Of a DNA stretch of 64,000 nt, positions 12,833 through 64,000 are shown piece by piece. Both the position numbers and the translations under genes were made by a program. Origin of the DNA: Epibacterium ulvae. Lineage in GTDB: Bacteria > Pseudomonadota > Alphaproteobacteria > Rhodobacterales > Rhodobacteraceae. The stretch's first letter is position 1; every line of letters begins with the position of its first letter. Where the stretch lies: NCBI RefSeq assembly GCF_018678075.1, contig NZ_JAHHIR010000005.1:124001-188000 (forward strand), given 5' to 3'. Below the pieces are notes generated by a model. That model was not told the origin of the DNA. It worked only from the letters and a program-made list of their open reading frames with translations, and did not search any database.

Positions 12833-15800
12833 CTAGCGTTCTTCGCGATCCTGGCGGCGGTCTTGAAAACTTTTGCGCGCGGGTTGTTCTTCACCAGGTA
12901 TGGTTGGCGACTGGCGGCGAAAGATTTCCCGCAGGAACCCAGGCGCCAATCCCGACAACGGGTTCACCGTCACTTTGGGATCATCAGCCGCCCCTTTAAG
13001 GTTGAAGGCAAAGCCGATCAACCCCTCACCCTTGCGGGTTAGAACACTGCCAACCACGTTGACCAGATAGATCGGCGACAACACGCCGCGCATATCCAAA
13101 CGGCCGTTTTCCAGATCGTAGATACCATCCATCGACAGACCTATGGAGGGCCCCACCGCGCTGCTTTTCCATAGTTGCAAATGGGTCGGCCCCAGCTGGA
13201 ATTGGGCCTCAACCTCGGTGAACAGCACGCCTTGGCCGGCCAGTTCGGTGACCAACCCCACCAGGCTAACAGCGTTGACCAGTGCCAACATGGCCGGGGC
13301 TTGCCGGATATAGGTGTTGCGCGCGGTGATCTGGCCGTTGAAATAGCCGGCCTTTTTGGCGGGCACCAATGTCATATCAAAACTGCCGCCAGCGGCATGG
13401 CGCAAAATCCCCGAGGACCGAAAGACGCCGCCCGCATCGTCTGAGCGCACCCGGATCCCCATGCCACCGTTTTGCGGCACCAAGACGCCGTTCACCGCGG
13501 TCTGCCCATTCAACAAGCCTCGGAATTCACCGTTCACGCCCCCTTGGGTCGAGATCCGACCGCGCATATTGCGCAGCGCGATACTTTCGGTCACCTGAAC
13601 CCGGTCGAGGGCAAATTCAATCGGTCCAATCCCGCCCGAACTGCCACCAGACCCGGATCCCGTGCCGCCATTGTTGCTGCCAAATGGCGCGGTGCGCAGA
13701 TCCAGGCTGCCGCCCGACAGCGCCAGCGACGGCGCCGCAGATCCACGCCCGGTAAAGGTCGCGCTGCTGTTCAGCCAATTGCCAATCCGCACCGAGGACA
13801 GCACCGCTTGATTGAGGCCACCACCGTCGCGCAAGGACACCCGACCGGTTGCCGTCAACCCCGCCGCCGACACCGACAGCGCATCCACACGGGGGGTCTG
13901 AGCCAAAGTCACTTGGGCCTCCAGGCTGCCCGTCGCCGTTTCCCGTTTGCGCCAGCCAAGGGATGCAATGCGCAGCCCGACCCCTTGCAGGTCGGACGTG
14001 ATTGAAAGTTTCGGAGCCGCGCCCGGCTCAAAACGCAGGTGATATTGGCCACGCCCGGACCCCGAAACCGTGCCTCGGGGCAGTCCGATCTTGAACGTCT
14101 CCACCGCTTCGGGCGTCAGCGCCACGGTGCCAATCACCCGATGGGGTTCCGTGTCACGCGCAGCCCCCAACGGCAGACGCCAGTCCACGGTTGCCGCCAC
14201 GCCGCTCAGCGCGCCATTGCCGGTGACCTGCACATGATCCTGGTCGCCGCTGACCGTCAGCCGGTCCGCCGTCACCACGTGATCGGGCACCAATACGTCG
14301 CTTTTTACCCCACGGATGGTGCCGATGTAGTGATAGTCAATCTCGTCCAGCGACAGCTTGTCTTTGAGCGCCAGCGCCATCGTGCCCTGCACCTGCGCGC
14401 GCCCCTCCGCCAGTTCGACGGGCAGGTTTGCCTTGTCCATCACGGACAAGGGTTCGCGGTTCAACAGCGACAGCGCCGCCGTGACAGAACCGTCGGCGGC
14501 CAATCGGATCACCGCCGGGCTGCCACCTTTGACGCTGGTGTCTGGGATAATGAACGACGTGCCCGCGACATTGAGCGCGCCGCCTGTATCAACCAGCACC
14601 TCTCCTTCGGTCGCGGTCGCTACCAAGCGGTTGCCGTGGATCGAAAACTGCCCCGCCGCGCCCTGTAGTTCGGGCATGTGTTTTTGATACCGCAGCTGCA
14701 TGCCCTCAAACCCGAGCGACAGCGACAGAAATGGTTTTTGCCCAGCCCGACTGCGCAGGGCGATCTGCACATCGCGCCCGATCCCGTCCGAGATATTCTC
14801 CCGCACCCATTTGCGCGGTTTGGGCGGCGCGGCGGCCGGCCACAGGGTTTTGACCTGATCAATGGTGACAACATCCGCCGCCCCATCCAGCGCATAGGCC
14901 CAGCCCGCGTCATCGGTCCAAACCTCACCTTTCAGATGCACGGTGGTGGCATCCTGGGTCACGGTTGCCTCACCGAGCTTGAGGCGAAACGGGTGCAGCT
15001 CCAGTTTAAAATCCGTGGTCACACCGGCAAATTGCTGCACGTCTTCGTATAGGTAAAACGGGTTCAGCTGGAGGTCCGAGAACCGCAATTGCCCGACCAG
15101 ATCTTGCAGTTGCCCGTTCTCAATCCCGCTGAGCCGTGCAATCCCTTCCATCTGGCCGCTGCCCCAACCGGTGGCAACGCTGAGCCCGTCAAACTGCAAC
15201 AGCTGTTCGGCCGGGAAATAGGTGAAATAGCTGCTCGCCCCATCAAAGGCTACTGGGCGCGCGGTGTCATCCGGTTGTAGCGCGCCTTCCCCGATCTCAA
15301 GGCTGGCGGCAACGGGGAGAAAGCCGCCTTGGCTGTCGACCCCGCCTCGCAAAGTACCAGAGATTGGCGCGCGCAGAATTTCCAACCACCCCAGAGCCGG
15401 GTTTTGCACCGCGATGTCCTGACTGTGCAGTTCGGTAAAGGCGATGCCGAACTCCGCCGCCGTATCACCAATGGCGGAGGTATAACTAGCCTCAACAACA
15501 CCAACCCCATCGCCGCCGCTCAGCACGGAAAACCCGGTCGACAAGGCCACATCTTCGCCGGTCCGGTCCAGCCGGATGTAGCCGCCATCAAAGGTCCAAG
15601 CGCGACCAATACGCAGGTCTTCGTATTGAAGCGTGATCGCCTCCACATCAATCGCCGTCAGCGCATCCAGACCCGGCTGATCCAGGTAGAGATCCCATTG
15701 TTCGATCAACTCAGGCAGGTTCTGTGCCTGCCGCACGGCATCGGCCCCATCCGCAAGGCTGAGCGCCACGCCGTCACCGCCGCGGCGCAACGTGGCGACC

Positions 15801-16195
15801 AAGCCGGCAAGGTAGACCGTTTTGGGGCTAATGCGACCATGAAACAGGTTCGACATCGACAGGCTCGCCTGCGCATCGCTGAGCTGCGCGGCAATCGCGC
15901 CATCTTCGTAACGCAGCACCACATCGCGCAGCCCCACACGCGGCCGCCAGCCTTGGTTGACAATCACCTGCATGGCGCCGAACTCAATGTCCAGACCGCC
16001 CAACTGTGCCTCAATCACGCCTTCAACGCGGTGACGCAACCAGGGTGGCACATCAAACTGTCGCCCCTGGCCAAAATAGACCAAACCGGCCGCCAAAACG
16101 CACAACACACTGGTCCAGCGCAGCAAGACCACGCCCATGCGCCGCAGCCCCAAAACCCAAGGGCGCGGCAACACGTCCACCTGCGCATCCGGCAC
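12833..16195 (-). CDS. AsmA-like / DUF3971 large inner-membrane-anchored protein (1120 aa)
   Basis: A very long protein with one N-terminal membrane helix (about residues 21-41) and a periplasmic body of repeating beta-strand segments, ending in an AsmA-like C-terminal region (GNYDLENGRLDMRG-type stretch near residue 1040, then ISPIYLVNVVGSVL). Its size and domain pattern match the YhdP/AsmA-like family, whose members are thought to form lipid-conducting grooves between inner and outer membranes. The reading frame opens at a GTG; upstream in frame there is no ATG before a stop, so GTG is the likely start. A short Gly/Ser linker near residue 855 separates two portions. The last residues are very charged (QDRRQDREER). 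Confidence 0.85.
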   Translation of the reverse strand: MPDAQVDVLPRPWVLGLRRMGVVLLRWTSVLCVLAAGLVYFGQGRQFDVPPWLRHRVEGVIEAQLGGLDIEFGAMQVIVNQGWRPRVGLRDVVLRYEDGAIAAQLSDAQASLSMSNLFHGRISPKTVYLAGLVATLRRGGDGVALSLADGADAVRQAQNLPELIEQWDLYLDQPGLDALTAIDVEAITLQYEDLRIGRAWTFDGGYIRLDRTGEDVALSTGFSVLSGGDGVGVVEASYTSAIGDTAAEFGIAFTELHSQDIAVQNPALGWLEILRAPISGTLRGGVDSQGGFLPVAASLEIGEGALQPDDTARPVAFDGASSYFTYFPAEQLLQFDGLSVATGWGSGQMEGIARLSGIENGQLQDLVGQLRFSDLQLNPFYLYEDVQQFAGVTTDFKLELHPFRLKLGEATVTQDATTVHLKGEVWTDDAGWAYALDGAADVVTIDQVKTLWPAAAPPKPRKWVRENISDGIGRDVQIALRSRAGQKPFLSLSLGFEGMQLRYQKHMPELQGAAGQFSIHGNRLVATATEGEVLVDTGGALNVAGTSFIIPDTSVKGGSPAVIRLAADGSVTAALSLLNREPLSVMDKANLPVELAEGRAQVQGTMALALKDKLSLDEIDYHYIGTIRGVKSDVLVPDHVVTADRLTVSGDQDHVQVTGNGALSGVAATVDWRLPLGAARDTEPHRVIGTVALTPEAVETFKIGLPRGTVSGSGRGQYHLRFEPGAAPKLSITSDLQGVGLRIASLGWRKRETATGSLEAQVTLAQTPRVDALSVSAAGLTATGRVSLRDGGGLNQAVLSSVRIGNWLNSSATFTGRGSAAPSLALSGGSLDLRTAPFGSNNGGTGSGSGGSSGGIGPIEFALDRVQVTESIALRNMRGRISTQGGVNGEFRGLLNGQTAVNGVLVPQNGGMGIRVRSDDAGGVFRSSGILRHAAGGSFDMTLVPAKKAGYFNGQITARNTYIRQAPAMLALVNAVSLVGLVTELAGQGVLFTEVEAQFQLGPTHLQLWKSSAVGPSIGLSMDGIYDLENGRLDMRGVLSPIYLVNVVGSVLTRKGEGLIGFAFNLKGAADDPKVTVNPLSGLAPGFLREIFRRQSPTIPGEEQPARKSFQDRRQDREER

Positions 16196-16328
16196 AGGTT
16201 CGCCGTCCGGCGCGGGGCCGGTGGTGGCAGAATTATGTGGATCGGGTGCGATGAGTGCTTTTCCCTTGGGAGTTATCGCCTAAGTATAGCGGGAAAACTT
16301 TGACACATTCTATCTGGAGACCTGTTCC

Positions 16329-16790
16329 ATGCTCAGCCAATCCGATCTTGCCCCCGACTTCACCCTGCCGCGCGATGGCGGTGATGAGGTCACGCTTTCC
16401 GCGCTCAAAGGGCAGACCGTGGTTCTCTTCTTTTATCCTCGTGATGATACGCCAGGCTGCACCAAGGAATCCATCGGATTTTCCGAACATCTGCAAAGCT
16501 TTGCCGACGCGGGCGTTCACGTGTTTGGGATCTCCAAAGACACGGTTGCCAAACACGCGAAATTCACAGCCAAACACGCGCTCACCGTGCCGCTGCTGTC
16601 AGACGCCGAAAGCGACACCTGCGAACGCTACGGCGTCTGGGTTGAGAAGAACATGTATGGGCGCAAAAGCATGGGCATCCAACGGGCGACTTTTGTGATC
16701 GACGCAAAGGGTAAAATCGCCAAGACCTGGCCAAAGGTCAAAGTGCCAGGCCATGTCGACGAAGTGCTTGAAACCATCCGCGCGCTTTAA
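16329..16790 (+). CDS. bcp: thioredoxin-dependent peroxiredoxin, Bcp/PrxQ type (153 aa)
   Basis: A thiol peroxidase that reduces hydrogen peroxide and organic hydroperoxides. The peroxidatic Cys is residue 44 in DDTPGCTKESIGF. The resolving Cys found five residues later in many PrxQ proteins is absent (Ile instead). Another Cys near residue 97 (SDTCERYGVW) might take that part, or this may be a 1-Cys form. Family segments PDFTLPRDGGDEVTLS and FVIDAKGKIAKTW are present. GGAGA precedes the ATG. It diverges from the AsmA-like gene across 133 bases. Confidence 0.93.
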   Translation: MLSQSDLAPDFTLPRDGGDEVTLSALKGQTVVLFFYPRDDTPGCTKESIGFSEHLQSFADAGVHVFGISKDTVAKHAKFTAKHALTVPLLSDAESDTCERYGVWVEKNMYGRKSMGIQRATFVIDAKGKIAKTWPKVKVPGHVDEVLETIRAL

Positions 16791-52996: not shown

Positions 52997-54157
52997 TCAC
53001 GAGGTGCCGAATTTCAGCAGTTTGATCGCCGCAAAATCGCTGACGTCGCCGCCGACGCGTTTGGTGGCATAAAACAGCACATGCGGCTTGGCGCTGAAGG
53101 GGTCGCGCAGCACCCGCAGGTCGGGGCGTTCGGCGATGGTGTAGCCGCTGGCAAAATCGCCAAAGGCAATGGAATAGCTGTTGGAGCCCACATCAGGCAT
53201 GTCCTCGGCAATCAACACCGGGTAGCCGAGCAGCATCGCAGGCTCACCGGCCGCTAGCCCATCGGTCCACAGGAAGCGGCCATCGCCGTCCTTGAGCTTG
53301 CGCACGTGGCCTGCGGTTTTGGAGTTCATCACAAATGCCCCATTGGCGCGGTATTGTGCCCCCAGCGCATAGACCAGATCGATGATCGGATCACCGCTGT
53401 CCAAAAGGCCGTTGGTCCCGGTGACCACATAGCCCAGGTTGCCCCAGCTCCAACTGTCGTTTTCGGTGACCGGATGGGTCAGGAAGCCGGTGGGTTTGTC
53501 GATGCCGTCGCCGTTCACAAAGGCCTCGGCCTCGGCGCGGGCAAAGGTGGTGGCGATGCGGCCGGCCAGCCAGCCCTCAATCTCAAACGCGCTGTCGTCC
53601 AGCAAACGCTGAGAGACCTTGGGCAGTGCCGACAGCTCATGCAGCGGGATGGAAATGCGTTCGATGGTGCCGGTTGTGGTCTCGGACGCATTTGCGGTCT
53701 CGGACGCCCAGCCAGAGCCCATCTCGGCGTGGTCGACCAGCACATCATAAGACGTGGCCTCAACATGAACCACGGAGGCAATCGAGCGGACAGAAGCGGA
53801 GGTCGCCAGAACCGCATTCACGCTCTCGGACGTTACGGGATCCACCAGATAGCCGCCATCGGTATTGACGGCCGTCGACAGCGCTTTGGTGTCAAATTCC
53901 AGCCCGCGCATGGCGGCGTCATCGCCGGTGCGTAGATAGGTGTCAAAGGCCTTTTGGTGCGGCGCTTCGACATCGGCGGTGGTGGCCAGCTGAGGGCGGG
54001 CAATGTGCTGTGCAGTCTGGCGAGTGGTTCGGTCCAACATGGTCATACGCTCATCTTGTTGTTGCAGTTTATTTTTCACTTCGCTTTGCAAGGTGCTGAT
54101 TTGGTTCACAAACCCATTCAGCGCTTGATGCAGGTCATGGTCGGTCACGTCAGTCAT
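52997..54157 (-). CDS. gene transfer agent major capsid protein, HK97 family (orfg5-like, 386 aa)
   Basis: HK97-fold capsid. The first 40-50 residues form a coiled-coil delta region (LNGFVNQISTLQSEVKNKLQ) removed by the prohead protease; the mature part starts near TDGGYLVDPVTSESVNAVLA. Typical capsid segments: VHVEATSYDVLVDHAEMGSG, LPKVSQRLLDDSAFEIEGWL, FVNGDGIDKPTGFLTHP, VRKLKDGDGRFLW and the C-terminal PHVLFYATKRVGGDV. The length is normal. Confidence 0.97.
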   Translation of the reverse strand: MTDVTDHDLHQALNGFVNQISTLQSEVKNKLQQQDERMTMLDRTTRQTAQHIARPQLATTADVEAPHQKAFDTYLRTGDDAAMRGLEFDTKALSTAVNTDGGYLVDPVTSESVNAVLATSASVRSIASVVHVEATSYDVLVDHAEMGSGWASETANASETTTGTIERISIPLHELSALPKVSQRLLDDSAFEIEGWLAGRIATTFARAEAEAFVNGDGIDKPTGFLTHPVTENDSWSWGNLGYVVTGTNGLLDSGDPIIDLVYALGAQYRANGAFVMNSKTAGHVRKLKDGDGRFLWTDGLAAGEPAMLLGYPVLIAEDMPDVGSNSYSIAFGDFASGYTIAERPDLRVLRDPFSAKPHVLFYATKRVGGDVSDFAAIKLLKFGTS

Positions 54158-54169
54158 CGGCGGTCTCCT

Positions 54170-54730
54170 TCACAAGGTTTCGCGTTGCAGCTGCTGGGTC
54201 GCCTGGCGCAAAGCCTGCGCCAGAACATGCAGGTTTTCGGTCCGTTCGGATTTCTGCGCGGGGCGCACGCGGGCGGTGGGCAACATGGGAAATGTCACCA
54301 GCGAGACCTCCCACAGGTCCAGCTCCAACAGCTGGCGGCCGCCACTATCGTTGCGCGCGCTTTTGGTGGTGCGATAGCCGATCGACAGACCATCCAGCGC
54401 GCCGGCGGCGATCAGGGCTGCGGCCTCGGCCCCTTGGCGGGTTTCGGTGAGGATCCGGCCGGAAACATACAGGCCCGTGGCGTCCTCGCGTAGCTCATCC
54501 CAGATGCCAATCGGCTGGGTCGGATCGTGTTGCCACAGCATTTTCACCCGGCGCCCCTGCGCGGCCAGCCGCTCTAGCGCCCCAGTGTAGGCGCCGGGCA
54601 TGACCTGATCGCCGCCCTGGTCGACCTCACCAAACCGGGAGGCATACCCTTGGATCCGCGCGCCTTCCGTCAGGGTGATCGGCGCGGGGTTTTCGGCAAA
54701 TTTGACTTCTAGTTGCGGCTCGATATGCAT
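54170..54730 (-). CDS. gene transfer agent prohead protease (orfg4-like, 186 aa)
   Basis: Peptidase family U35/S78-type. Seen: IQGYASRFGEVDQGGDQVMP, the His in VKMLWQHDPTQPIG, and the Ser region GALDGLSIGYRTTKS. It matures the HK97-type capsid. I use ATG 54730 with GGAG upstream, not the TTG one codon earlier. The gene lies between g3.5 and the capsid gene with 12 bases to the latter. Confidence 0.94.
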   Translation of the reverse strand: MHIEPQLEVKFAENPAPITLTEGARIQGYASRFGEVDQGGDQVMPGAYTGALERLAAQGRRVKMLWQHDPTQPIGIWDELREDATGLYVSGRILTETRQGAEAAALIAAGALDGLSIGYRTTKSARNDSGGRQLLELDLWEVSLVTFPMLPTARVRPAQKSERTENLHVLAQALRQATQQLQRETL

Positions 54731-54742
54731 CAACTTCTCCGG

Positions 54743-54757
54743 TTAACCAGTTGTTAA
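54743..54757 (-). promoter_or_regulatory. TTAA-N7-TTAA (CtrA-like) motif before the prohead protease gene
   Basis: TTAA, seven bases, TTAA on either strand; on the minus strand TTAACAACTGGTTAACC. One half overlaps the stop of the preceding small gene. It is the second such site in the cluster. Confidence 0.35.
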
Positions 54758-54972
54758 GGAACGATCATGAAGGACTGCGCCGCCTGGGCGAGGATCACGG
54801 CCGCAACGCCGTAAACCGTGAGCCAGAGACGTTTTTCCAGCCGTTCCATCATCATCTCGATCCGATCCAGACGCCGGTTCAGCGCCTCCTGCTGGATCTG
54901 ATAGATCCGCTCATGGGCCGACAGGCGCAGCCCCGGTGAACAGTCAAAGGCGCTGTAGGGTCCATCAGCCAT
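54754..54972 (-). CDS. gene transfer agent small membrane protein (orfg3.5-like, 72 aa)
   Basis: Starts at ATG 54972 (AGGAGC upstream) and overlaps the portal stop. An amphipathic/coiled N-terminal half (AHERIYQIQQEALNRRLDRI) is followed by one membrane helix (about residues 50-68). It is the equivalent of the g3.5 gene found between portal and protease in RcGTA-like clusters; its role is not established. Holin-like action is conceivable from the layout but unproven. Confidence 0.85.
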   Translation of the reverse strand: MADGPYSAFDCSPGLRLSAHERIYQIQQEALNRRLDRIEMMMERLEKRLWLTVYGVAAVILAQAAQSFMIVP

Positions 54973-56179
54973 CGGCGTGCTCCTGCATCTTGGGTGGCAG
55001 GCCCAGAAGATGGCGTTTTTCCGCATCGGTCAGGAAATCGGCAGCTGAAATGCGCCGCCACTGCGCCTCGCGTTCGGTAGCCAAGGCGGGTACTTGGTCA
55101 AGGTCGGGCGCAAGGGTCAGCGGCGTGCCCATATAGCGCGACAGCCAATCCGACAGATCCGCCGTCACCCGCGTGGCCAGCGGCAGCACGGTCAGCCGGT
55201 AAAAGGCGCGGTTGGCTTCCTGGTAGTTGGCATAGGTCGCATCCCCCTTGATCCCCATCAGCATCGGCGGCACCCCAAATGCGAGGGCGATTTCGCGGGC
55301 AGCGGAATCTTTGGTGGCCTGAAACTCCATATCAGAGGGTGAGAACCCCATCGGTTTCCAGTCCAGCCCTCCTTCCAGCACCATGGGCCGGCCGGCATTG
55401 CGCGCCCCTTGGAAGCTTTCAGCGATCTCATCCGACAGGCGGCGAAACTGTTCCTCGCTCAAGGTGCCAAGCGCGTCAGAGCCGTTCCAGACCAAGGCTC
55501 CCGACGGGCGCGCGGCATTGTCCAGCAAGGACTTTGACCAGCGCGAGGCGGAGTTGTGCACATCCACCGCCATGGCAGCGGCCTGCAGCGGGGAGAACCC
55601 GTAGTGGTCGTCCTGGGGGTGGAAATTGCGGATATGACAGATCGGAGAGATCGCGCCAGTGGCCGCAAACCGGTGCTTGCGCCCGCCCACCGCATATTCA
55701 TAGGCCTGCGGCCAGCCGTCACTGCCCGGCACCACCCGCATCCGGTCCGAGCGCAGCACGTGCAGCTCTCCCGGCAGATCACTGGCAAGGTCATCCGCCA
55801 TCGCCGCCGCCTCAACATAGGCATTGCCGGACAGCAGAAGATGTCCATAGAGCGCTTCCAGAAATTCGGCGCGCCCCTGTGCGGTATTGGGCCGGGTGAT
55901 GAGGGCGAGCATCGGGTGGCTGTCATAACGGCGTGTGCTGTCTTGTAGGGTCAAGGGCAGCGCGGCGGCGGCCTCCGCGATCAGTTTGACGGCGCGAAAA
56001 CCGACCGGATTGGCGGCAAAGCCTGCGCGGGTCAGAGTGGCCGTGTCACGGGGGCTCCAGGCGGCCTGGGCGCTGGTGGTCCTATTGACAAGACGCGCGG
56101 CGGCGCTGGCCTTGGTCTCCACCGTTGGGGCAGGTTTGGGTGCGCCAGATGGGGGACGGCGCAGACGATCAAACAGCAT
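54965..56179 (-). CDS. gene transfer agent portal protein (orfg3-like, 404 aa)
   Basis: HK97-type portal, the dodecameric ring for DNA entry. Motifs: FAANPVGFRAVKLIAEAAAA, LPGELHVLRSDRMRVVPGSD, DDHYGFSPLQAAAMAVDVHN, FGVPPMLMGIKGDATYANYQ and EANRAFYRLTVLPLATRV. GAGGAG precedes the ATG. A 225-base gap separates it from the terminase gene. Confidence 0.96.
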   Translation of the reverse strand: MLFDRLRRPPSGAPKPAPTVETKASAAARLVNRTTSAQAAWSPRDTATLTRAGFAANPVGFRAVKLIAEAAAALPLTLQDSTRRYDSHPMLALITRPNTAQGRAEFLEALYGHLLLSGNAYVEAAAMADDLASDLPGELHVLRSDRMRVVPGSDGWPQAYEYAVGGRKHRFAATGAISPICHIRNFHPQDDHYGFSPLQAAAMAVDVHNSASRWSKSLLDNAARPSGALVWNGSDALGTLSEEQFRRLSDEIAESFQGARNAGRPMVLEGGLDWKPMGFSPSDMEFQATKDSAAREIALAFGVPPMLMGIKGDATYANYQEANRAFYRLTVLPLATRVTADLSDWLSRYMGTPLTLAPDLDQVPALATEREAQWRRISAADFLTDAEKRHLLGLPPKMQEHADG

Positions 56180-56404
56180 GGGTGGGCTCCTCTGGTGCGG
56201 TGGGGCAAGGGATCAAAGCGTGGGGACAAGAATGCGGCATGGGTCCTAACAAGGTCGTTCCGAGCCGTGCGCCGAAGCCGCAACACTTGGTTAACCACGG
56301 AGTGCAAGACATTGTTTAAAAAGAAAACGGCCCGCAGATGCGGACCGTTTCAAGTGTTGCATTGGCCGGATTTTGACCGATTATTTGCCCGTCCATTTGA
56401 CCAT
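56180..56404. other. terL-portal gap with hairpins inside the GTA cluster
   Basis: This 225-base gap interrupts an otherwise tightly packed gene string. It holds a terminator-like hairpin (56325-56350), an outer 9-bp inverted repeat (CAACACTTG at 56281-56289 and its complement at 56351-56359) and a GGTTAACC palindrome. No ORF with coding character is present. Confidence 0.6.
56315..56350 (-). terminator. terminator-like hairpin between terL and portal
   Basis: On the minus strand an 11-bp stem (AAACGGTCCGC against GCGGGCCGTTT, one mismatch) with a 4-base loop is followed by TCTTTTT. It lies downstream of terL and upstream of the portal gene, so it could attenuate transcription inside the cluster. 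Confidence 0.7.
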
Positions 56405-57769
56405 CTAGAGGCTGCGCGCACGGGGCATGGCAAAGTTCTGCGCGGGGTCAATCATCAGCTCTGTCAGCGCCCAGACCAGCGCATCGAGCCGGTCTGGTGA
56501 TCCCTGCCCCTGATAGCCCTGCGGCGTCATCTGGCACATCTGATCCTCCAACGCTTGTAACCCTGGCAGATGGCGGATTTTACCCTGTTCATAAAGCGCG
56601 GCCACCGGTTCGGCGCGGGCGGATTTGCCCTTGCGGGCGTGGCGCGGTTTGAAGGGCACCAGCGCGTCCACCTGCCGCAAGACGGTTTCCACCAATGCGC
56701 CGCCCTGGTTGACCTCAGCCACGATCCGGTCGGCGTTGTGAACCTCGGCTGCGCGCACCGCCGCTGTGGCCCATTCCAGCGGGCTGGCGCCGGTTACAGT
56801 ATGATCCGCCAGCACATAGCCGCGCCAGTCTTTGGGTCCCCCATCCGTCACGGCCCCCACCACAAGGATGCCGCAAGCGTCAGAGTTTTCATGATGCGAC
56901 ACGGCGGGGTCCACCGCCACCACCACCCGGTTGAGGGGGGGCGCGCGTTTCACCTGTGCCGCGATCAGCTGCGCACTGCGCCAGAGCGCGCCGTCGGCTT
57001 CGCCCAGAAGTGCGCCCTCCAGCTCCTGTTGACCCAGACGGGTGCCGCCATAGCGATCTTCGACCTCGGTCAGGAAAGACGGTGCCAGATTGGCTGCATT
57101 GGCTGAGGTGGGCGCGCTGGTCTGCACGGTTGAGGGGCTGGTGATCAACTGGCGCAGCACCTCAACATTGCGCGGTGTGGTGGTCACACAGACCTGCGGC
57201 TGGTCGCCAAGGCGCAGGGCGAATTGCAGCATGTCCCAGCTGTCTTCGCCTTTTTTCCACTTGGCCAGCTCATCCGCCCAGGCGACATCAAATTGCGGAC
57301 CCCGCAGAGCTTCGGGGTCATGGGCGGAAAACGCCTGTGCCTCGGCTCCGTTTGGCCAGATCAGCCGCCGTTCGCTGGCCTTCCAGACCGGGCGACGATC
57401 CGGGGGCGAACAGGCGACAATGCCGCTGTCGCCTCGGATCATCACATCGCGCACCTGATCATAGGTCTCCCCCACCAGGGCCACCCGGCAGGCGCGCCCT
57501 GCCGAAAGCGCCGTGGCCCCTTCGACCTGGGCGCGCACCCATTCGGCGCCGGCGCGGGTTTTGCCGGCCCCGCGCCCGCCCAGGATCACCCAGGCGCGCC
57601 AGTCGCCCGGCGGTGGCAGTTGGTGATCCATCGCCCAAAAGGAGAACTCATACGGCAGGGCCGCATATGTGGGTTCTGAGAGGTCATTCAGGAACGCCGC
57701 CGCCCGGCTGGGTGGCGCGCAGGCGAGCCAATCTGCTGTTGATCTCGACGCGCACCGCCTCGAAATCAT
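56405..57769 (-). CDS. terL: gene transfer agent large terminase (orfg2-like)
   Basis: The packaging motor. ATPase: Walker A GGRGAGKTRAGAEW (about residue 65) and Walker B with PQFDVAWADELAKW near residue 165. Nuclease: VVAVDPAVSHHENSDACGI, then further acidic residues to the C-terminus. The start is uncertain: ATG 57769 (454 residues) overlaps TerS by 86 bases; homology begins around ADWLACAPPSRAAAFL, so a non-ATG start closer in is possible. GTA terminases package random host DNA. Confidence 0.94.
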   Translation of the reverse strand: MISRRCASRSTADWLACAPPSRAAAFLNDLSEPTYAALPYEFSFWAMDHQLPPPGDWRAWVILGGRGAGKTRAGAEWVRAQVEGATALSAGRACRVALVGETYDQVRDVMIRGDSGIVACSPPDRRPVWKASERRLIWPNGAEAQAFSAHDPEALRGPQFDVAWADELAKWKKGEDSWDMLQFALRLGDQPQVCVTTTPRNVEVLRQLITSPSTVQTSAPTSANAANLAPSFLTEVEDRYGGTRLGQQELEGALLGEADGALWRSAQLIAAQVKRAPPLNRVVVAVDPAVSHHENSDACGILVVGAVTDGGPKDWRGYVLADHTVTGASPLEWATAAVRAAEVHNADRIVAEVNQGGALVETVLRQVDALVPFKPRHARKGKSARAEPVAALYEQGKIRHLPGLQALEDQMCQMTPQGYQGQGSPDRLDALVWALTELMIDPAQNFAMPRARSL

Positions 57770-58031
57770 AGGCGGGCGTTTGGGTGGATGCATCGGTGAT
57801 GAGGGCGCTTTGGTCGACAAGGGTTTTCTCCACCTTTTGGCAATCACGGATCAGGGTTTCGAGCTTGTTGATCTGGGGTTTGACACCACCTGTGTCAGGG
57901 TTGATCGCATCTTCAGCGCGCAGTTGTTCGCGCAGGGCTTCGGCCTCGTTGCGCAGGGTGAGGATGGAATCGTGAAGCGAGCGCAAAAGATCGGCGGTTT
58001 TGCCGATCAGCGTTTCAGGAGGATGTTTCAT
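57684..58031 (-). CDS. terS: gene transfer agent small terminase (orfg1-like, 115 aa)
   Basis: Occupies the first position of the cluster. From ATG 58031 the protein is mostly helical with coiled-coil heptads (LIGKTADLLRSLHDSILTLR, NEAEALREQLRAED, INKLETLIRDCQKVEKTLVD), like RcGTA orfg1, which acts as the small terminase. The longer frame to 58121 adds residues of no conservation. The end is Gly-rich and overlaps the terL frame. Confidence 0.82.
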   Translation of the reverse strand: MKHPPETLIGKTADLLRSLHDSILTLRNEAEALREQLRAEDAINPDTGGVKPQINKLETLIRDCQKVEKTLVDQSALITDASTQTPAYDFEAVRVEINSRLARLRATQPGGGVPE

Positions 58032-58390: not shown

Positions 58391-58834
58391 ATGGAAAAAT
58401 CCAAACTTGCACTCGCGCTGTTGATCATGCGCCTTAGCGCTGCTGCGTTTATGATCGCCTGGACCAGCCTGAAATTCCGTGTTCCGCAGTCCTTTGAAAA
58501 CATCTTTCACAAATTCTACGGGCTGCATTTTGTCACCCAGGATCTGGCCTGGATCGTGGGCGGCATTCAGATGTTGATCGTGCTGGCTTTTGCCATCGGT
58601 ATCCTGCGCACCTACACCTATGGAGCGGTTTTGTTGATGCATGGCGTGGGCACGCTGTCGTCGATCCCCAATCTGATCGATTACACCACCTATCCCAACC
58701 AGCTGATGTGGGCGGCAGTGCCGACGCTGGGTTCCATGGTGGCGCTGTTCTTGTTGCGTGCGGACGACCAATTCTCGGTCGATGGGATGCGGATGAAATC
58801 TGCGCCCGCGGTCGAGGCAACTCCGGGCGAGTAA
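58391..58834 (+). CDS. DoxX-like membrane protein (147 aa)
   Basis: Four predicted membrane helices (about residues 6-26, 50-72, 76-96 and 105-124). The spacing and conserved region (FIAWTSLKFRVP-like start, IGILRTYTYGAVLLMHG) resemble DoxX-family integral membrane proteins. The C-terminus is a short cytoplasmic tail. Role unknown. It stands apart from the transport operon by a terminator. Confidence 0.75.
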   Translation: MEKSKLALALLIMRLSAAAFMIAWTSLKFRVPQSFENIFHKFYGLHFVTQDLAWIVGGIQMLIVLAFAIGILRTYTYGAVLLMHGVGTLSSIPNLIDYTTYPNQLMWAAVPTLGSMVALFLLRADDQFSVDGMRMKSAPAVEATPGE

Positions 58835-58865: not shown

Positions 58866-58900
58866 GACCTGTCAGGTGATCCGCCTGGCAGGTCTTTTTT
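58866..58900 (+). terminator. rho-independent terminator after the DoxX-like gene
   Basis: GACCTGTCAGG / CCTGGCAGGTC stem with one mismatch, 7-base loop, six T. It separates this gene from phnD. Confidence 0.9.
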
Positions 58901-59012
58901 ATGCCCGCGCGCAGTCGGAGGGGGCGGCTTTCACAAAAGATTAAAGATCAGGTCACGCATCCGTCACGAAGGACTGAAATTCATTCGTATGAATTTCACC
59001 TGGAGAGAACCG

Positions 59013-59882
59013 ATGAAACTGAAATCACTTGTACTGGGCCTCGGCCTTGCAGCGGCATCTGCGTTTGGCGCAGCGGCTGAGACTTGGAAACTGGCCGTCA
59101 CCGACGTTGAAGGCCTGGAGCGTTTGCAGCTGGAATGGGGCCCTTTCAAAGAGGCGCTGGAAACTGCAACCGGCGACACCTTTGAATTCTATGCTGTAAA
59201 CTCCCGCACCGCCGCCGCCGAGGCGCTGCGCGCTGAGACGGTTGATTTCGTGGTATCCGGTCCTGCGGAATATGTGGTCATCAACAAGCTGACCAAAGCC
59301 ACACCGCTGATCGGTCTGGGTCGCCCTGACTATCACTGTGCCATCGTTGTACGTGCTGACAGCGGCATCAACGTGCCGGCGGATCTGAAGGGCAAGAAAG
59401 TGGCCTTTGGTGACATCGGTTCGACCTCCAACATGCTGTGCCCGATGCAGGCGCTGGCTGATCACGGTGTTGATCCGGTCAACGACATCGACAAGACCCA
59501 CACCAGCCGCAACATCGCCCACGAAGCGTTGAAGAACGGCGACATCGACGCGCTGGGCTCCAACGCAGGCAGCTGGTTGCGTGTACGCAACAAAGAGACC
59601 GACCTGCCCTATGGTTTCTTCAAGATCATCACCCGTTCCGGTGATCTGCCCAACGACATGATCATGGTTGGCGCGCATGTTCCAACGGATGCAGCCGAAG
59701 GTCTTAAAACCGCGATCCTTGAGAACAAAGAGACCATCATTGCCGGGATCCTCGCCCATGAGGAAAACGACAAATACACCGGCATGGATCTGGTTGCGAT
59801 CGAAGACAGCGCCTATAACTACGTGCGCTCCATGTACACCACAGCGGGCTTCCCGCAATTTGACGACTTCATCGGTGACTGA
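59013..59882 (+). CDS. phnD: phosphonate-type ABC transporter substrate-binding protein
   Basis: A periplasmic binding protein of the PhnD/PtxB family (phosphonate, phosphite or related P-oxyanion). I start at ATG 59013 with GGAGAG upstream; the signal peptide ends near AAA-ETW (about residue 23). Family segments: FVVSGPAEYVVINKLTKATP, KKVAFGDIGSTSNMLCP (the binding-site loop with Ser/Thr residues), DKTHTSRNIAHEALKNGDID. A conserved Tyr/His in PDYHCAIVVRAD precedes the crossover. First gene of a tightly packed unit that continues to at least 64.0 kb. Confidence 0.92.
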   Translation: MKLKSLVLGLGLAAASAFGAAAETWKLAVTDVEGLERLQLEWGPFKEALETATGDTFEFYAVNSRTAAAEALRAETVDFVVSGPAEYVVINKLTKATPLIGLGRPDYHCAIVVRADSGINVPADLKGKKVAFGDIGSTSNMLCPMQALADHGVDPVNDIDKTHTSRNIAHEALKNGDIDALGSNAGSWLRVRNKETDLPYGFFKIITRSGDLPNDMIMVGAHVPTDAAEGLKTAILENKETIIAGILAHEENDKYTGMDLVAIEDSAYNYVRSMYTTAGFPQFDDFIGD

Positions 59883-60747
59883 TCCGGTGAACGAGATCCT
59901 GGCACCCTCTCGGGTGTCAGACCGAGCCGGGGCGCAGCGCGTCCCGGTTTCGGGTGATGTGCAGGCGGGTTCTGCTGCCGCGCCGGTTGTATTGCAAGAC
60001 GCAATGCCGCGTCATGACGTGAGCGTTCAGGGGTTGACCAAAAACTTTGGCCAGACGCCGATTTTTGCCGACGTCAGCTTTCGCCTGCTGCGCGGAGAGG
60101 CCGTGGCGCTGGTGGGCGCCAATGGCACCGGAAAATCCACGCTGCTGCGCTGCCTGCTGGGGTTGATCCCGGCAAGTTCCGGCACGGTTGAGGTTCTGGG
60201 ACGTCGCATCACCGACGCGCGCTCTGCTGATCTAAGGGTCTTGCGCTGTCGCACCGGGCTGGTGTCGCAAAAGCACAATCTGGTGCCGCGCCTGTCGGTT
60301 CTGTCCAATGTCCTTCATGGGCTGTTGGGATCGCACAGCGGTCCGCGCTATTGGTCGCAAAGCTTTGCACCGTTGCCTGCGCGACGTGCCGCGATAGACG
60401 CGCTTGAGCAAGTGGGGCTGGCAAATCTGGCGTCGCGACGTGCCGACCGCTTGTCCGGTGGACAGTCCCAACGGGTCGCTATTGCCCGCGCGCTGGTGGC
60501 CAAGCCGCAGTTGCTGATTGCCGACGAACCCTGCGCCTCCCTTGACCCAGCTGCGGGTGAAGAGGTGATGGCGCTGTTCTTCAAACTTGTGCGCGAAAAT
60601 GGCGTCACCGTTGTCTTTACCTCCCACCATGTGGATCACGCGCTGGATTACGGCGACCGGGTGATTGGTCTGGCCGGGGGCAAGCTGGCGCTGGATGCTA
60701 CTGCCGCCTCCCTCACCGCATCTGACCTGAGAGGGCTTTATGACTGA
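59875..60747 (+). CDS. phnC: phosphonate-type ABC transporter ATP-binding protein
   Basis: ATPase of the PhnCDE importer. Walker A GANGTGKST, signature LSGGQSQRVAIARAL, Walker B LLIADEPCASLDP, H-loop TSHHVDHAL. The start is uncertain. GTG 59875 overlaps the phnD stop and gives 290 residues with a 43-residue leader; ATG 60004 gives 247 residues and opens directly at the conserved MPRHDVSVQGLTKNF. The longer frame from 59668 lies over phnD and is rejected. It overlaps phnE by 8 bases. Confidence 0.92.
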   Translation: MTDPVNEILAPSRVSDRAGAQRVPVSGDVQAGSAAAPVVLQDAMPRHDVSVQGLTKNFGQTPIFADVSFRLLRGEAVALVGANGTGKSTLLRCLLGLIPASSGTVEVLGRRITDARSADLRVLRCRTGLVSQKHNLVPRLSVLSNVLHGLLGSHSGPRYWSQSFAPLPARRAAIDALEQVGLANLASRRADRLSGGQSQRVAIARALVAKPQLLIADEPCASLDPAAGEEVMALFFKLVRENGVTVVFTSHHVDHALDYGDRVIGLAGGKLALDATAASLTASDLRGLYD

Positions 60748-61546
60748 CCATTCCCTTCCCCGCCGTCTGGAACGTCCTTCGGCGCTGGCCTTCCTGGGCT
60801 ATGTTGTGGCCATTGTCATTGTGATCTGGGCCTTTCAGGGTGCCGGGTTTTCGCTGGACAAAGTGCTGACCTCACCACCGCGTTTTGCTGATTTCATGTC
60901 GCGCGCCTTTCCGCCCAATCTGGAATCGGAGGTCATGGCGCGTCTGGGCCGCAAGATGGTTGAAACCTTGCAAATCGCCTTTGCTGGGGCCGTGCTGGGG
61001 GTGATCCTGTCGCTGCCCGTCGCGCTGCTGGCCGCACGCGGATTGATTGCCGGTCCGTGGATCAATGGGATCGTGCGCAATATCCTGGGCTTTATCCGCG
61101 CGGTGCCAGACATCGCCTGGGCGCTGGTCTTTGTTGTTGCTGTGGGTCTTGGCCCCTTTGCCGGCACGCTTGCCATTATGATCGACACCATTGGGTTTTG
61201 TGGCCGCTTCTTTGCCGATGATATGGAAGCCGTCGACAAGGGCCCGTCCGAGGCGCTGACCGCCACCGGTGCACGCCGCCTGGATATCACTGCCTGTGCG
61301 ACTTTGCCTGCGGCCGCGCCTGCCTTTGTCTCTACCGCGCTCTATGCGCTGGAGAAAGCGGTGCGTTCTTCCACCATTCTGGGCCTTGTCGGCGCAGGAG
61401 GGATCGGGATCGAGCTGAAGGTCGGCTTTGATCTGTTTGACTATCCCACTGCGATGACTGTGATCTTGATGATTGCCGTGGTTGTCATCGCGATCGAAGC
61501 GCTCAGCACCTGGGCGCGCAAAACCATTATCGGAGAGCAGCGATGA
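60740..61546 (+). CDS. phnE: phosphonate-type ABC transporter permease
   Basis: Inner-membrane permease of the importer, 268 residues with about six membrane helices. The EAA-type cytoplasmic loop is visible as EALTATGARRLDITACATLP near residue 173. The PhnE-like segments VETLQIAFAGAVLGVILSLP and FIRAVPDIAWALVFVVAVGL are present. It overlaps phnC by 8 bases and the methyltransferase by 4 (ATGA). Confidence 0.94.
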   Translation: MTDHSLPRRLERPSALAFLGYVVAIVIVIWAFQGAGFSLDKVLTSPPRFADFMSRAFPPNLESEVMARLGRKMVETLQIAFAGAVLGVILSLPVALLAARGLIAGPWINGIVRNILGFIRAVPDIAWALVFVVAVGLGPFAGTLAIMIDTIGFCGRFFADDMEAVDKGPSEALTATGARRLDITACATLPAAAPAFVSTALYALEKAVRSSTILGLVGAGGIGIELKVGFDLFDYPTAMTVILMIAVVVIAIEALSTWARKTIIGEQR

Positions 61547-62187
61547 AGACCGATACCGCCGATCAGCATTGGAACGCGCAATGGTCCAAACCTCAGGTCG
61601 AGGAAAAATGGCTGACCCCGGAAGAGGATGTAAAACGCTGGGCCGCAACCCTCACCCAAGGCGCGCGCATTCTGGATCTTGGCGCCGGTGTTGGCCGCCA
61701 CGCGCTGTGGTTGGCGGATCAGGGATTTGACGTGGTGGCGCTGGACGCCGCTCCCGATGGTCTGGCCGAGATTGACCGCGCGGGCGGTGTCACCACCCAA
61801 TTGGGCCGTATGGATGCACTGCCGTTTGCGGATGGCAGTTTTGACCATGTCCTCAGCTGGAATGTGATCTACCACGGGGACGAAGATATCCTGTTGCGCA
61901 CCATTGGCGAAATCCGCCGGGTGCTGCGGTCGGGCGGCAGTTATTTGGGCACCATGCTGTCCAAACGACGCCTGCCCCATGAATTGGCCAAAGCCGAGGG
62001 GCGCGAGATCAGTCTCAACACGTGGGTGTTTGACAGCGCGACCTCTGACAAGAAACATCCACATTACTACTGTAGTGCAGCGGAGCTGCTATCGCTGTTT
62101 TCGGGATTTGAAGTGCAGGCACTGGACGACCGGCAGCATGAAAAACCCGGATCCTACCACTGGCATCTTTTGATGGAGCGTCTTTGA
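61543..62187 (+). CDS. class I SAM-dependent methyltransferase (214 aa)
   Basis: Rossmann methyltransferase with motif I ILDLGAGVGRHALWLA (about residue 45), an acidic residue after the second strand (VVALDAAPDG) and motif post-II ALPFADGSFDHVLSWNVIYH. It resembles methyltransferases of small molecules such as the TehB/UbiE-like group. Its start (ATGA) overlaps phnE and its stop overlaps phnM, so it is translated with the importer. A methyltransferase is not part of the known C-P lyase pathway. The substrate is unknown; it may modify the imported compound or its product. Confidence 0.88.
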   Translation: MKTDTADQHWNAQWSKPQVEEKWLTPEEDVKRWAATLTQGARILDLGAGVGRHALWLADQGFDVVALDAAPDGLAEIDRAGGVTTQLGRMDALPFADGSFDHVLSWNVIYHGDEDILLRTIGEIRRVLRSGGSYLGTMLSKRRLPHELAKAEGREISLNTWVFDSATSDKKHPHYYCSAAELLSLFSGFEVQALDDRQHEKPGSYHWHLLMERL

Positions 62188-63401
62188 CCATGAACACCAC
62201 AACCTTTACAGGCGCAACCGTTTACCTGCCGGACCAAAGTGTTGAAACCACAGTAACCGTGGCCGATGGCACCATTGTTGAGATCGGCGGCCCGGTTCAG
62301 GGAACTGAGGTCGCAGCCACGGGCTGCATTCTGGCCCCGGCCCTTTTGGATGTGCACGGAGATGCGTTTGAGCGCCAGTTGATGCCGCGCCCAGGCGTGT
62401 TTTTCCCGACCGAGGCTGCGGTGATTGACACCGATCGGCAATTGGCGGCAAACGGCATCGCCACCGCCTATCACGCCATCACGCTGGGCTGGGAGCCGGG
62501 TTTGCGAGATGTGGCGCGCGGACGCAACCTTATGGAAACCATGCTCAATCTAGCCCCGCGCCTGACGGTGGAAAACCGAGTGCAGCTGAGATGGGAGACC
62601 TTTGCCTTTGAGGCCTTGGACACCATTGAATGGGCGCTGGGCAGCGATCTGCACCCGTCGGTGGCGTTCAACGATCACACCTCGATGACCATGCGGGCCT
62701 ATGATGTGGCCATTCAGGATCGCGCCTTTGAACTGGGTCCGGATTTCTCCATCGCGGCGCTCGATGATGCGCGGATGAAACAGCGCACCGCCTCAAAAGC
62801 CACCCGCGCGGGCCTGTCGCAAGAAGACTACATCGCGCTGTTGGGCAAGGTCTGGGAGCGCCGAGACGAGGTACCTGCGATGATCGGCAAAGTGGCCGAT
62901 CTGGGCCGCGCGGCCGGAGCTGCAATGCTGAGCCATGATGACACCCGCGCCGAGACCCGCGCCTTTTTCCGCGAACTGGGGGCCGGTGTGTCGGAATTCC
63001 CGATGGTTCTGGAAGCGGCCGAAGCCGCGCGCGCTGCCGGGGATCTGATCGTCTTTGGCGCGCCAAATGCTGCGCGCGGCGGCAGCCATATCGGATCGCT
63101 TGCCGCCGGTGACATGGTTGAGGCGGGCCTGTGTGATGCGCTGGCCTCTGACTATTTCTACCCGGCGATGCTGGCGGCGGTGGCGCGACTGGACGCGGAA
63201 CAGCGCGCCGATCGTCTGGCGATCTGGTCACTGGTCTCATCTGGTCCGGCGCGCGCCATGGGCCTGACAGACCGGGGTGAGATTGCCGTCGGCAAACGCG
63301 GTGATCTGGTGCTGGTGGATTGGCCCGAAGGCCACGCCCCCGCCATCCAAGGCACCTGGGTCGCCGGGCGCTGCGCCTATCGCGGCCTACCCCGTGGTTG
63401 A
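62184..63401 (+). CDS. phnM: PhnM-type amidohydrolase (alpha-D-ribose 1-methylphosphonate 5-triphosphate diphosphatase family)
   Basis: In the C-P lyase pathway PhnM removes pyrophosphate from ribose 1-methylphosphonate 5-triphosphate. This 405-residue protein has the amidohydrolase fold with PhnM-like motifs: LLDVHGDAFERQLMPRPG near the N-terminus (E. coli PhnM has LHTDNLDK at this place), LSHDDT, GAPNAARGGSHIGSLAAGDM and SDYFYPAMLAA, with C-terminal RGEIAVGKRGDLVLVDW. Metal ligands look preserved. It overlaps the methyltransferase by 4 bases. No phnGHIJKL genes are visible, so the physiological substrate may differ. Confidence 0.88.
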   Translation: MTMNTTTFTGATVYLPDQSVETTVTVADGTIVEIGGPVQGTEVAATGCILAPALLDVHGDAFERQLMPRPGVFFPTEAAVIDTDRQLAANGIATAYHAITLGWEPGLRDVARGRNLMETMLNLAPRLTVENRVQLRWETFAFEALDTIEWALGSDLHPSVAFNDHTSMTMRAYDVAIQDRAFELGPDFSIAALDDARMKQRTASKATRAGLSQEDYIALLGKVWERRDEVPAMIGKVADLGRAAGAAMLSHDDTRAETRAFFRELGAGVSEFPMVLEAAEAARAAGDLIVFGAPNAARGGSHIGSLAAGDMVEAGLCDALASDYFYPAMLAAVARLDAEQRADRLAIWSLVSSGPARAMGLTDRGEIAVGKRGDLVLVDWPEGHAPAIQGTWVAGRCAYRGLPRG

Positions 63402-63430
63402 TTGATACATTTGAAACCAAGGACTTTTCT

Positions 63431-64000
63431 ATGACCCCGCTCAAAATTGGTGCCTGTCTCAAGGCGTGCGAAATCTCCCTGCATCGCAACTGGTTGTTTG
63501 ATGCAGACCGCGACATTGAATTGCAGGACTTTATGACCTTTGCGGCGCTGACCGATGAACGCGATGCCCGCATCGTCGCCGCCAAAGATGCCCTGCAAGG
63601 CCATCAGGGGCGCATCGGTATTCACGGCCCCTATGAGGGTCTGGATTTCGACAACAAAGACGCGGAGCTGCGCCCCCTGATCACCAAACGCATGCTGCTG
63701 GCGCTAGAGGCGGCTGCGGCGATTGGTGCGCGCCAAATGGTGCTGCATTCGCCCTATCGCAGATGGTATCAAAACAACATTCTCGCCCAGCCCGATTACG
63801 CAGAAAACAAACTGGGCCGCATTCATCAGGTGCTGGGCCCCGTGGTCAAACAGGCCGAGGTCGAAGGCATCACGCTGGTGATCGAGAACATCGAAGATGT
63901 GGAGCCCGCAACCCGTCGGCGTATGGTCGAAAGCTTTGCCTCCTCTGCGATTGCCCTGTCGATTGACACCGGCCACGCCCATCTGGCCCGCCGTATGTCG
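63431..64000 (+). CDS. sugar phosphate isomerase/epimerase-like TIM barrel, partial at window end
   Basis: ATG 63431 opens a frame that runs off the window (190 residues seen). It is of the AP-endonuclease-2/xylose-isomerase-like TIM barrel family: GIHGPYEGLDF near residue 64, MVLHSPY, LVIENIEDVEP with the metal Glu, and SIDTGHAH with the metal Asp/His near the edge. Such enzymes isomerise or epimerise sugars or act on related substrates. It follows phnM by 29 bases, so it probably belongs to the same transcript and pathway. Confidence 0.85.
   Translation, partial: MTPLKIGACLKACEISLHRNWLFDADRDIELQDFMTFAALTDERDARIVAAKDALQGHQGRIGIHGPYEGLDFDNKDAELRPLITKRMLLALEAAAAIGARQMVLHSPYRRWYQNNILAQPDYAENKLGRIHQVLGPVVKQAEVEGITLVIENIEDVEPATRRRMVESFASSAIALSIDTGHAHLARRMS

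Follow-up and report, generated by a model that had tools for sequence, protein, structure and literature searches.

The carbon-phosphorus (C-P) lyase of Escherichia coli, PhnGHIJKLM (structures 4xb6 and 7z15-7z19), is the described system closest to the genes considered here, and its PhnJ subunit carries the Fe4S4/radical site with cysteines 241, 244, 266 and 272, numbered as in the parts available of PMC9947105 and PMC11978286. According to the available parts of two further papers, phnJ serves as a marker of two processes, the cleavage of C-P bonds and the aerobic release of methane from methylphosphonate (PMC8774927, PMC9999580). Other systems that invite comparison are the phosphite and hypophosphite importers PtxABC and HtxBCDE, endonuclease IV, the AP_endonuc_2 phosphoesterase CbiR and the phn cluster of plasmid pVV8 from Thermus thermophilus HB8. 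Here, we report on six genes, termed operon A, at the end of a 64,000-nucleotide stretch of the Epibacterium ulvae genome (the window, G000:C86:124001-188000; genome of 4.1 Mb in 107 contigs). Operon A faces a convergent phn operon just beyond the window, termed operon B, whose PhnJ has lost three of the four cysteines. With a probability of roughly 0.4, operon A provides the uptake and the late steps of a phosphorus salvage that works by ribosylation and whose core, operon B, is a C-P-lyase-like complex without radical chemistry.

The sequence beyond the window was read as far as C86:202500. Operon B (L007:5747-17074) lies on the opposite strand, with no bases between it and the end of the last gene of operon A (64246 in window-equivalent numbering), and its order is phnF-G-H-I-J-K-L-M-C-D-E-E-kinase-acetyltransferase. 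The initial annotation had described operon A as lacking a C-P lyase, with the reservation that phnGHIJKL might follow directly downstream in the same operon. None is present at 59013-64000 or in the operon A transcript; the genes do follow directly, on the other strand and in a separate, convergent transcript, and a canonical operon stands elsewhere in the genome. Operon B resembles C-P lyase in its subunits, with phnGHIJKLM complete, in the order of its genes and in the zinc site of PhnI, where His328 and His333 are both histidine in 79 of 79 PhnI proteins from loci of the same kind. PhnI and PhnJ of operon B score above their Pfam cut-offs without matching any NCBIfam model, PhnH and PhnM are above and PhnK and PhnL below their NCBIfam cut-offs, and PhnG is assigned from position and conservation in relatives only; the acetyltransferase is of the TIGR03308 family. 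The further C-P lyase operon, on contig C27, includes phnN and DUF1045, and its PhnJ has all four cysteines. On the sequence features tested, operon B was clearly built from a radical C-P lyase but is no longer one.

The PhnJ of operon B (L007:13403-14323), hereafter PhnJ2, has about 47% identity with its canonical counterpart in this genome and, unlike C-P lyase, lacks C244, C266 and C272; in the alignment only the equivalent of C241 is left. Its distribution was followed in a sample of the family (149 genomes, each from a different genus), in a phylum sample of 398 genomes, and in a set of PhnJ2 loci, with flanks of up to 10 kb, comprising the best 80 of the 180 relatives that PhnJ2 retrieved from a collection holding one genome for each species. 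PhnJ (PF06007) was found in 69 of the 149 family-sample genomes, and full-length scores fell into two groups, about 437-494 as against 378-389 bits, besides a 96-bit fragment in a single genome (G132). The low-scoring group comprised nine genomes, operon B being among them, and in the phylum sample five of the 83 genomes with PhnJ had a low-scoring one (379-397 bits). At all 80 PhnJ2 loci C244 is replaced by serine, C266 by valine, leucine or isoleucine and C272 by glycine, and the equivalents of Gly32 and C241 are retained. No mixed cysteine pattern occurred among 127 PhnJ rows that also took in canonical PhnJs from other families (97 PhnJ2 and 30 canonical, some genomes being present twice and one canonical row ending with its locus before the last two cysteines). 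The PhnJ of Haloarcula has all four cysteines, within a longer loop. In an unrooted tree of 71 rows, PhnJ2, including that of T. thermophilus pVV8, forms one side of a branch with support of 100/99, subject to a long-branch warning. The median ratio of nonsynonymous to synonymous substitution rates was 0.12 for PhnJ2, like that of PhnK (0.11) and below that of PhnI (0.16), so that PhnJ2 is under strong purifying selection and the cysteine loss is not decay. Since PhnJ2 is kept under such selection without cluster ligands, it can serve as a natural experiment for learning which of the PhnGHIJ reactions require the radical.

The same losses are seen in the phn cluster of pVV8 (L144), whose PhnJ (8974-9855) is without the same three cysteines and where, about 6 kb on, a gene at 15595-16359 encodes a triosephosphate isomerase (TIM) barrel closely resembling TTHB071, whose structure is solved. 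Unlike operons A and B, this cluster has a sugar-type ATP-binding cassette (ABC) transporter and a YmdB-like phosphoesterase, and no second PhnM and no methyltransferase are annotated in the 18.8 kb read. Eight plasmid records contain a PhnJ 69-78% identical to PhnJ2, of which four are named C-P-lyase PhnJ and four are unannotated there. Where the records inspected are annotated, PhnJ2 bears the ordinary PhnJ name, and as such it would inflate phnJ-based counts. No mention of a PhnJ without these cysteines was found in the literature, as represented mostly by open-access papers and parts of them, which is weak evidence of novelty.

Operon A itself consists of the following genes:

59013-59882, + strand: phnD, a PhnD/PtxB-type periplasmic substrate-binding protein (Pfam PF12974, 139.6 bits, cut-off 27)
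60004-60747, + strand: phnC, a PhnC-like ABC ATPase (PF00005, 121 bits), for which an alternative GTG start at 59887 is possible
60740-61546, + strand: phnE, a permease (TIGR01097, 275.8 bits, above the cut-off of 216.7)
61543-62187, + strand: a class I S-adenosylmethionine-dependent methyltransferase (PF13649/PF08241)
62184-63401, + strand: a PhnM-like amidohydrolase, PhnM3 (NF011987 subfamily, 347.3 bits, cut-off 253)
63431-64000 in the window, gene end 64246 (L007:4931-5746), + strand: an AP_endonuc_2 TIM barrel (PF01261, 102.7 bits)

Genes, order and strand are as first described, and the overlaps of 4-8 bases reported for most junctions are present at three of the five: phnC and phnE overlap by 8 bases, phnE and the methyltransferase gene by 4, and the latter and phnM by 4. 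Gaps of 121 bases (with the phnC ATG at 60004) and 29 bases separate phnD from phnC and phnM from the TIM gene. The six genes are one tight unit, and this unit probably begins with phnD, as a hairpin followed by Ts, found by eye, lies upstream of it at about 58867-58902. Operon A is moreover recurrent, co-directional importer, methyltransferase, PhnM and barrel genes being present in other genera, and its isolated look within the window is misleading.

PhnD of operon A scores 87.4 bits against the equivalog TIGR03431 (cut-off 261.1), and its best PDB sequence matches are PtxB and HtxB, at 51 and 48 bits. Unlike PtxABC and HtxBCDE, operon A has no recognised phosphite- or hypophosphite-oxidising enzyme. 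For the methyltransferase no NCBIfam model was above cut-off and the PDB matches were generic only; the arsenite methyltransferase ArsM was rejected at 27.1 bits against an equivalog cut-off of 263, and the arsenic compound once proposed as a substrate finds no support in such scores. PhnM3 shows 33% identity with either of the genome's two C-P-lyase PhnMs, with His/Asp residues common to all three, and falls short of the PhnM equivalog TIGR02318 (281.7 bits, cut-off 390.55); against PDB it had no match at E 0.001. Another PhnM homologue, 37% identical to PhnM3, is located on a 9.9 kb contig of the same genome (L062, G000:C105:1874-2974).

The two operons are associated beyond this genome. PhnM3 orthologs, of at least 52% identity to the window protein, were present in 20 of the 149 family-sample genomes; PhnJ2 was found in 8 of these 20 as against 1 of the 129 others (p = 2e-7), and any PhnJ in 19 of the 20 as against 50 of the 129 (p 2e-6), kinship being uncorrected in both comparisons. 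The undescribed pathway suggested by the initial annotation may exist, but an absence of C-P lyase is not supported, given the adjoining operon B, the canonical operon on C27 and these 19 genomes. In the eight family-sample genomes with both operons, A and B are neighbours in six and on short separate contigs in two. At the 80 PhnJ2 loci, homologues of at least 45% identity were found for the TIM barrel in 36, PhnM3 in 30, the methyltransferase in 13 and PhnD of operon A in 10. Unlike C-P lyase, operon B is in many cases adjoined by an endonuclease-IV-like barrel and by a third PhnM. Wherever methyltransferase and phnM genes were both found, at 26 loci (some being one genome twice), the former stands ahead of the latter in the same orientation. 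TIM genes of at least 71% identity occurred in five family-sample genomes, all five with PhnM3 and four with PhnJ2. PhnM3-like genes in four genomes (G001, G008, G077 and G078) stand alone, without the remaining genes of operon A nearby, and give no functional hint. A major facilitator superfamily (MFS) transporter gene occurs in the operon A neighbourhood at 13 of the 80 PhnJ2 loci (for example L096:1538-2737), beside the TIM gene in 11 of the 13, and it abuts PhnM3 at L077 and L096.

The TIM barrel gave a structure model with a predicted local distance difference test (pLDDT) score of 95. Eight residues, H65, H106, E152, D179, H182, H210, D219 and E250, do not vary among 33 orthologs, and a ninth, H221, is conserved in at least 90%. 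In an hhalign profile alignment with E. coli endonuclease IV nine of nine ligand positions matched (probability 83%, E 9.5e-6), the nine zinc ligands of E. coli Nfo being H, H, E, D, H, H, D, H and E. The barrel of the window nevertheless matches no deoxyribonuclease IV model, and among the 33 members TIGR00587 was matched weakly in two and NF002198 in five. Its top NCBIfam match is CbiR (NF041277), but with 38 bits and a cut-off of 105. A structure search ranked MJ1311 and TTHB071 first, TTHB071 also in zinc-soaked form, followed by sugar epimerases; endonuclease IV was not among the top 50 rows shown, which does not exclude a match, and it was not listed in a PDB profile search up to E = 1. 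A sugar epimerase or isomerase identity was rejected, the best model being fructoselysine 3-epimerase at 33 bits against a cut-off of 305, and tagatose epimerases miss part of the endonuclease IV ligand set. Because the nine ligand positions are matched, the barrel is likelier to be a metallo-phosphodiesterase acting on a ribosyl phosphodiester than a sugar isomerase, and the sugar isomerisation assigned to it earlier is unlikely, given also the CbiR match below cut-off.

In the available part of PMC10574752 the known ring-openers are PhnP and a 2H-phosphodiesterase. The best match to PhnP in the window genome reached just 56 bits against a cut-off of 272. Unlike C-P lyase, DUF1045, which we take to be of the 2H-phosphodiesterase kind, was found at none of the 80 PhnJ2 loci and PhnN at one. 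In two genomes from another family of the class (G219 and G338) the PhnJ2 operon continues after phnM with DUF1045 and PhnN, DUF1045 of G338 being in pieces, and in a family-sample genome (G074) DUF1045 lies just past phnF and PhnN past the acetyltransferase gene, all on one strand. The presence of both genes in the PhnJ2 cluster of three genomes suggests that this cluster still feeds phosphoribosyl cyclic phosphate into phosphoribosyl pyrophosphate (PRPP). From gene position and motif we infer a place for the barrel at the ring-opening step, as a candidate third replacement for PhnP. A distant barrel of the same family (25% identity) is also encoded on a plasmid of Haloarcula halophila (L145:12672-13481), right after the phnM of a four-cysteine C-P lyase. 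The kinase of operon B, a P-loop protein of the DNA topology modulation/FlaR type (L007:6398-6931), has counterparts in 9 of the 80 PhnJ2 loci and might be a stand-in for PhnN.

Regulation by phosphate was approached by scanning for the best match to the PHO box CTGTCAT-N4-CTGTCAT and comparing mismatches with shuffled sequence, which is not a calibrated test. Upstream of phnF of operon B the mean was 3.26 mismatches as against 5.32 in shuffled sequence (n = 70, two of them perfect; two mismatches in the window's own operon B), upstream of phnC of operon B 4.28 as against 5.31 (n = 81), and upstream of phnD of operon A 3.56 as against 5.28 (n = 16, some of these regions being divergent ones shared with B). 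A GpdQ-like phosphodiesterase gene, as we take it to be, is present near operon B in 10 of the 80 loci (for example L088:5472-6299), with at least 56% identity in 7 of the 10, and sugar-type ABC permeases are found near it in several loci. Such phosphodiesterase and transporter neighbours, those on pVV8 included, are hints that lean towards phosphorus esters or phosphonate esters as substrate.

The favoured reading, salvage through ribosylation without a radical, draws on gene order, linkage, cysteine loss, tree grouping, selection and ligand pattern as its sequence-backed parts. A small phosphorus oxyanion or ester would enter via PhnDCE of A or B, and PhnGHI(L) of operon B would join it to C1 of the ATP ribose, as the two kept zinc histidines of PhnI suggest, whereupon PhnM would take off pyrophosphate. 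Without cluster ligands and catalytic cysteine no thiyl radical should be possible in PhnJ2, so that the group would depart heterolytically, for example by attack of the ribose 2-OH to give 5-phosphoribosyl 1,2-cyclic phosphate. The ring may then be opened by the endonuclease-IV-like barrel of operon A, or by DUF1045 in other genomes, as motif and gene position would have it, and PhnN would make PRPP. Substrates for such a route should have a better leaving group than a plain alkylphosphonate, as a phosphate ester, a phosphoramidate or an activated phosphonate would. More tentatively, and with some doubt, we consider a wider claim: that this is a widespread, phosphate-regulated, non-radical C-P lyase scaffold which ribosylates its substrates and splits them heterolytically to phosphoribosyl cyclic phosphate, that the barrel is a third kind of ring-opening phosphodiesterase, and that databases and phnJ surveys count the system as methane-producing C-P lyase.

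A number of observations weigh against the favoured reading. PhnD of operon A is nearest to phosphite and hypophosphite binders and not to ester binders, and a structure prediction of PhnJ2 from nine sequences was unusable (pLDDT 33). Of the 26 loci where methyltransferase and PhnM3 occur together, some of which end too soon, just 13 show the TIM gene; this gene is absent after operon A in G127, and 28 further family-sample genomes have a TIM paralog of 41-52% identity only. Twelve of the 20 PhnM3 genomes are without PhnJ2, and operon A lies beside the canonical C-P lyase in G104 and beside both operons in G080; operon A is not exclusive to operon B. The regions upstream of canonical phnF and phnH (n = 4 each) matched the PHO box no better than shuffled sequence, and a PHO box before operon A of the window was rejected, the best site having four mismatches and lying in what appears by eye to be the terminator of the preceding gene. 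Finally, the genomes behind 50 of the 80 loci were examined, and in 49 of them a canonical-scoring PhnJ accompanies PhnJ2.

This last figure makes it possible that operon B depends on canonical PhnJ. The co-occurrence fits a need of B for downstream enzymes of the canonical operon or a hand-over of an intermediate, and the first is given more weight. A rival explanation is that operon B ribosylates special substrates to prime them for the canonical PhnJ of the same cell and that operon A is a general C-P lyase accessory. The 49 genomes, the canonical PhnJ of 19 of the 20 PhnM3 genomes and the position of operon A in G104 and G080 all agree with such priming. We nevertheless hold it unlikely. 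Transfer of an intermediate between two large complexes would be unusual, and shared PhnN and DUF1045 could also explain the co-occurrence. Two genomes, G074 of the family sample and G572 (Paenochrobactrum gallinarii, the one exception among the 50), have PhnJ2 and no other PhnJ, yet both keep PhnN, at about 8 kb and about 3 kb from PhnJ2, and DUF1045, which in G572 is on another contig. The DUF1045 and PhnN genes inside the PhnJ2 operons of G219 and G338 speak against priming as well.

That operon A serves tailoring or detoxification followed by export, the methyltransferase modifying a phosphonate or its ribosyl derivative that is then exported, with an MFS protein in relatives, is improbable. 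The MFS gene of 13 loci, its position beside the TIM gene in 11 and against PhnM3 in two, and the acetyltransferase with which operon B terminates would all suit such a role. Two importers at the locus and PHO-box-like sites before operon B better match nutrient uptake, and in the window genome PhnM3 and the TIM gene are only 29 bases apart, without an MFS gene in between.

About as improbable is the proposal that PhnJ2 is still a C-P lyase, by way of another metal site or cysteine arrangement made up of the C241 equivalent and a new cysteine beside Gly32. Such a cysteine directly follows Gly32 at all 80 loci, where Gly32 and C241 are themselves kept, and the remainder of the protein has about 47% identity with the genome's canonical PhnJ. 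The 80 of 80 is biased, however, because one of the two patterns used in the scan included the cysteine after Gly32. This cysteine is missing from the PhnJ2 proteins of Sinorhizobium sp. B11, G219 and Thermus, although their losses are the same. Two cysteines are, furthermore, insufficient for a classical Fe4S4 site, and C272, said in the available part of PMC7916636 to attack phosphorus, is gone.

The idea of the initial annotation, a hydrolysis of a sugar-linked phosphorus or arsenic compound independent of C-P lyase and followed by sugar isomerisation, is very improbable: in G091 operon A is present without any PhnJ match, but with about 480 contigs and PhnN and DUF1045 kept this genome may miss a contig, the barrel has the endonuclease IV ligand set that is incomplete in tagatose epimerases, and no arsenic marker was above cut-off. 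The pair of operons is a finding worth following, as a C-P-lyase-like machine without the radical residues, and hints at a different and unrecognised use of this machinery.

Next to operon A, the window encodes at 58391-58834 on the + strand a small membrane protein, presumably DoxX-like, for which there was no Pfam or NCBIfam match. Also just before operon A, at 52997-57847 on the - strand, is a gene block of prophage or gene-transfer-agent type, whose translations we take to be capsid-, protease-, portal- and terminase-like.

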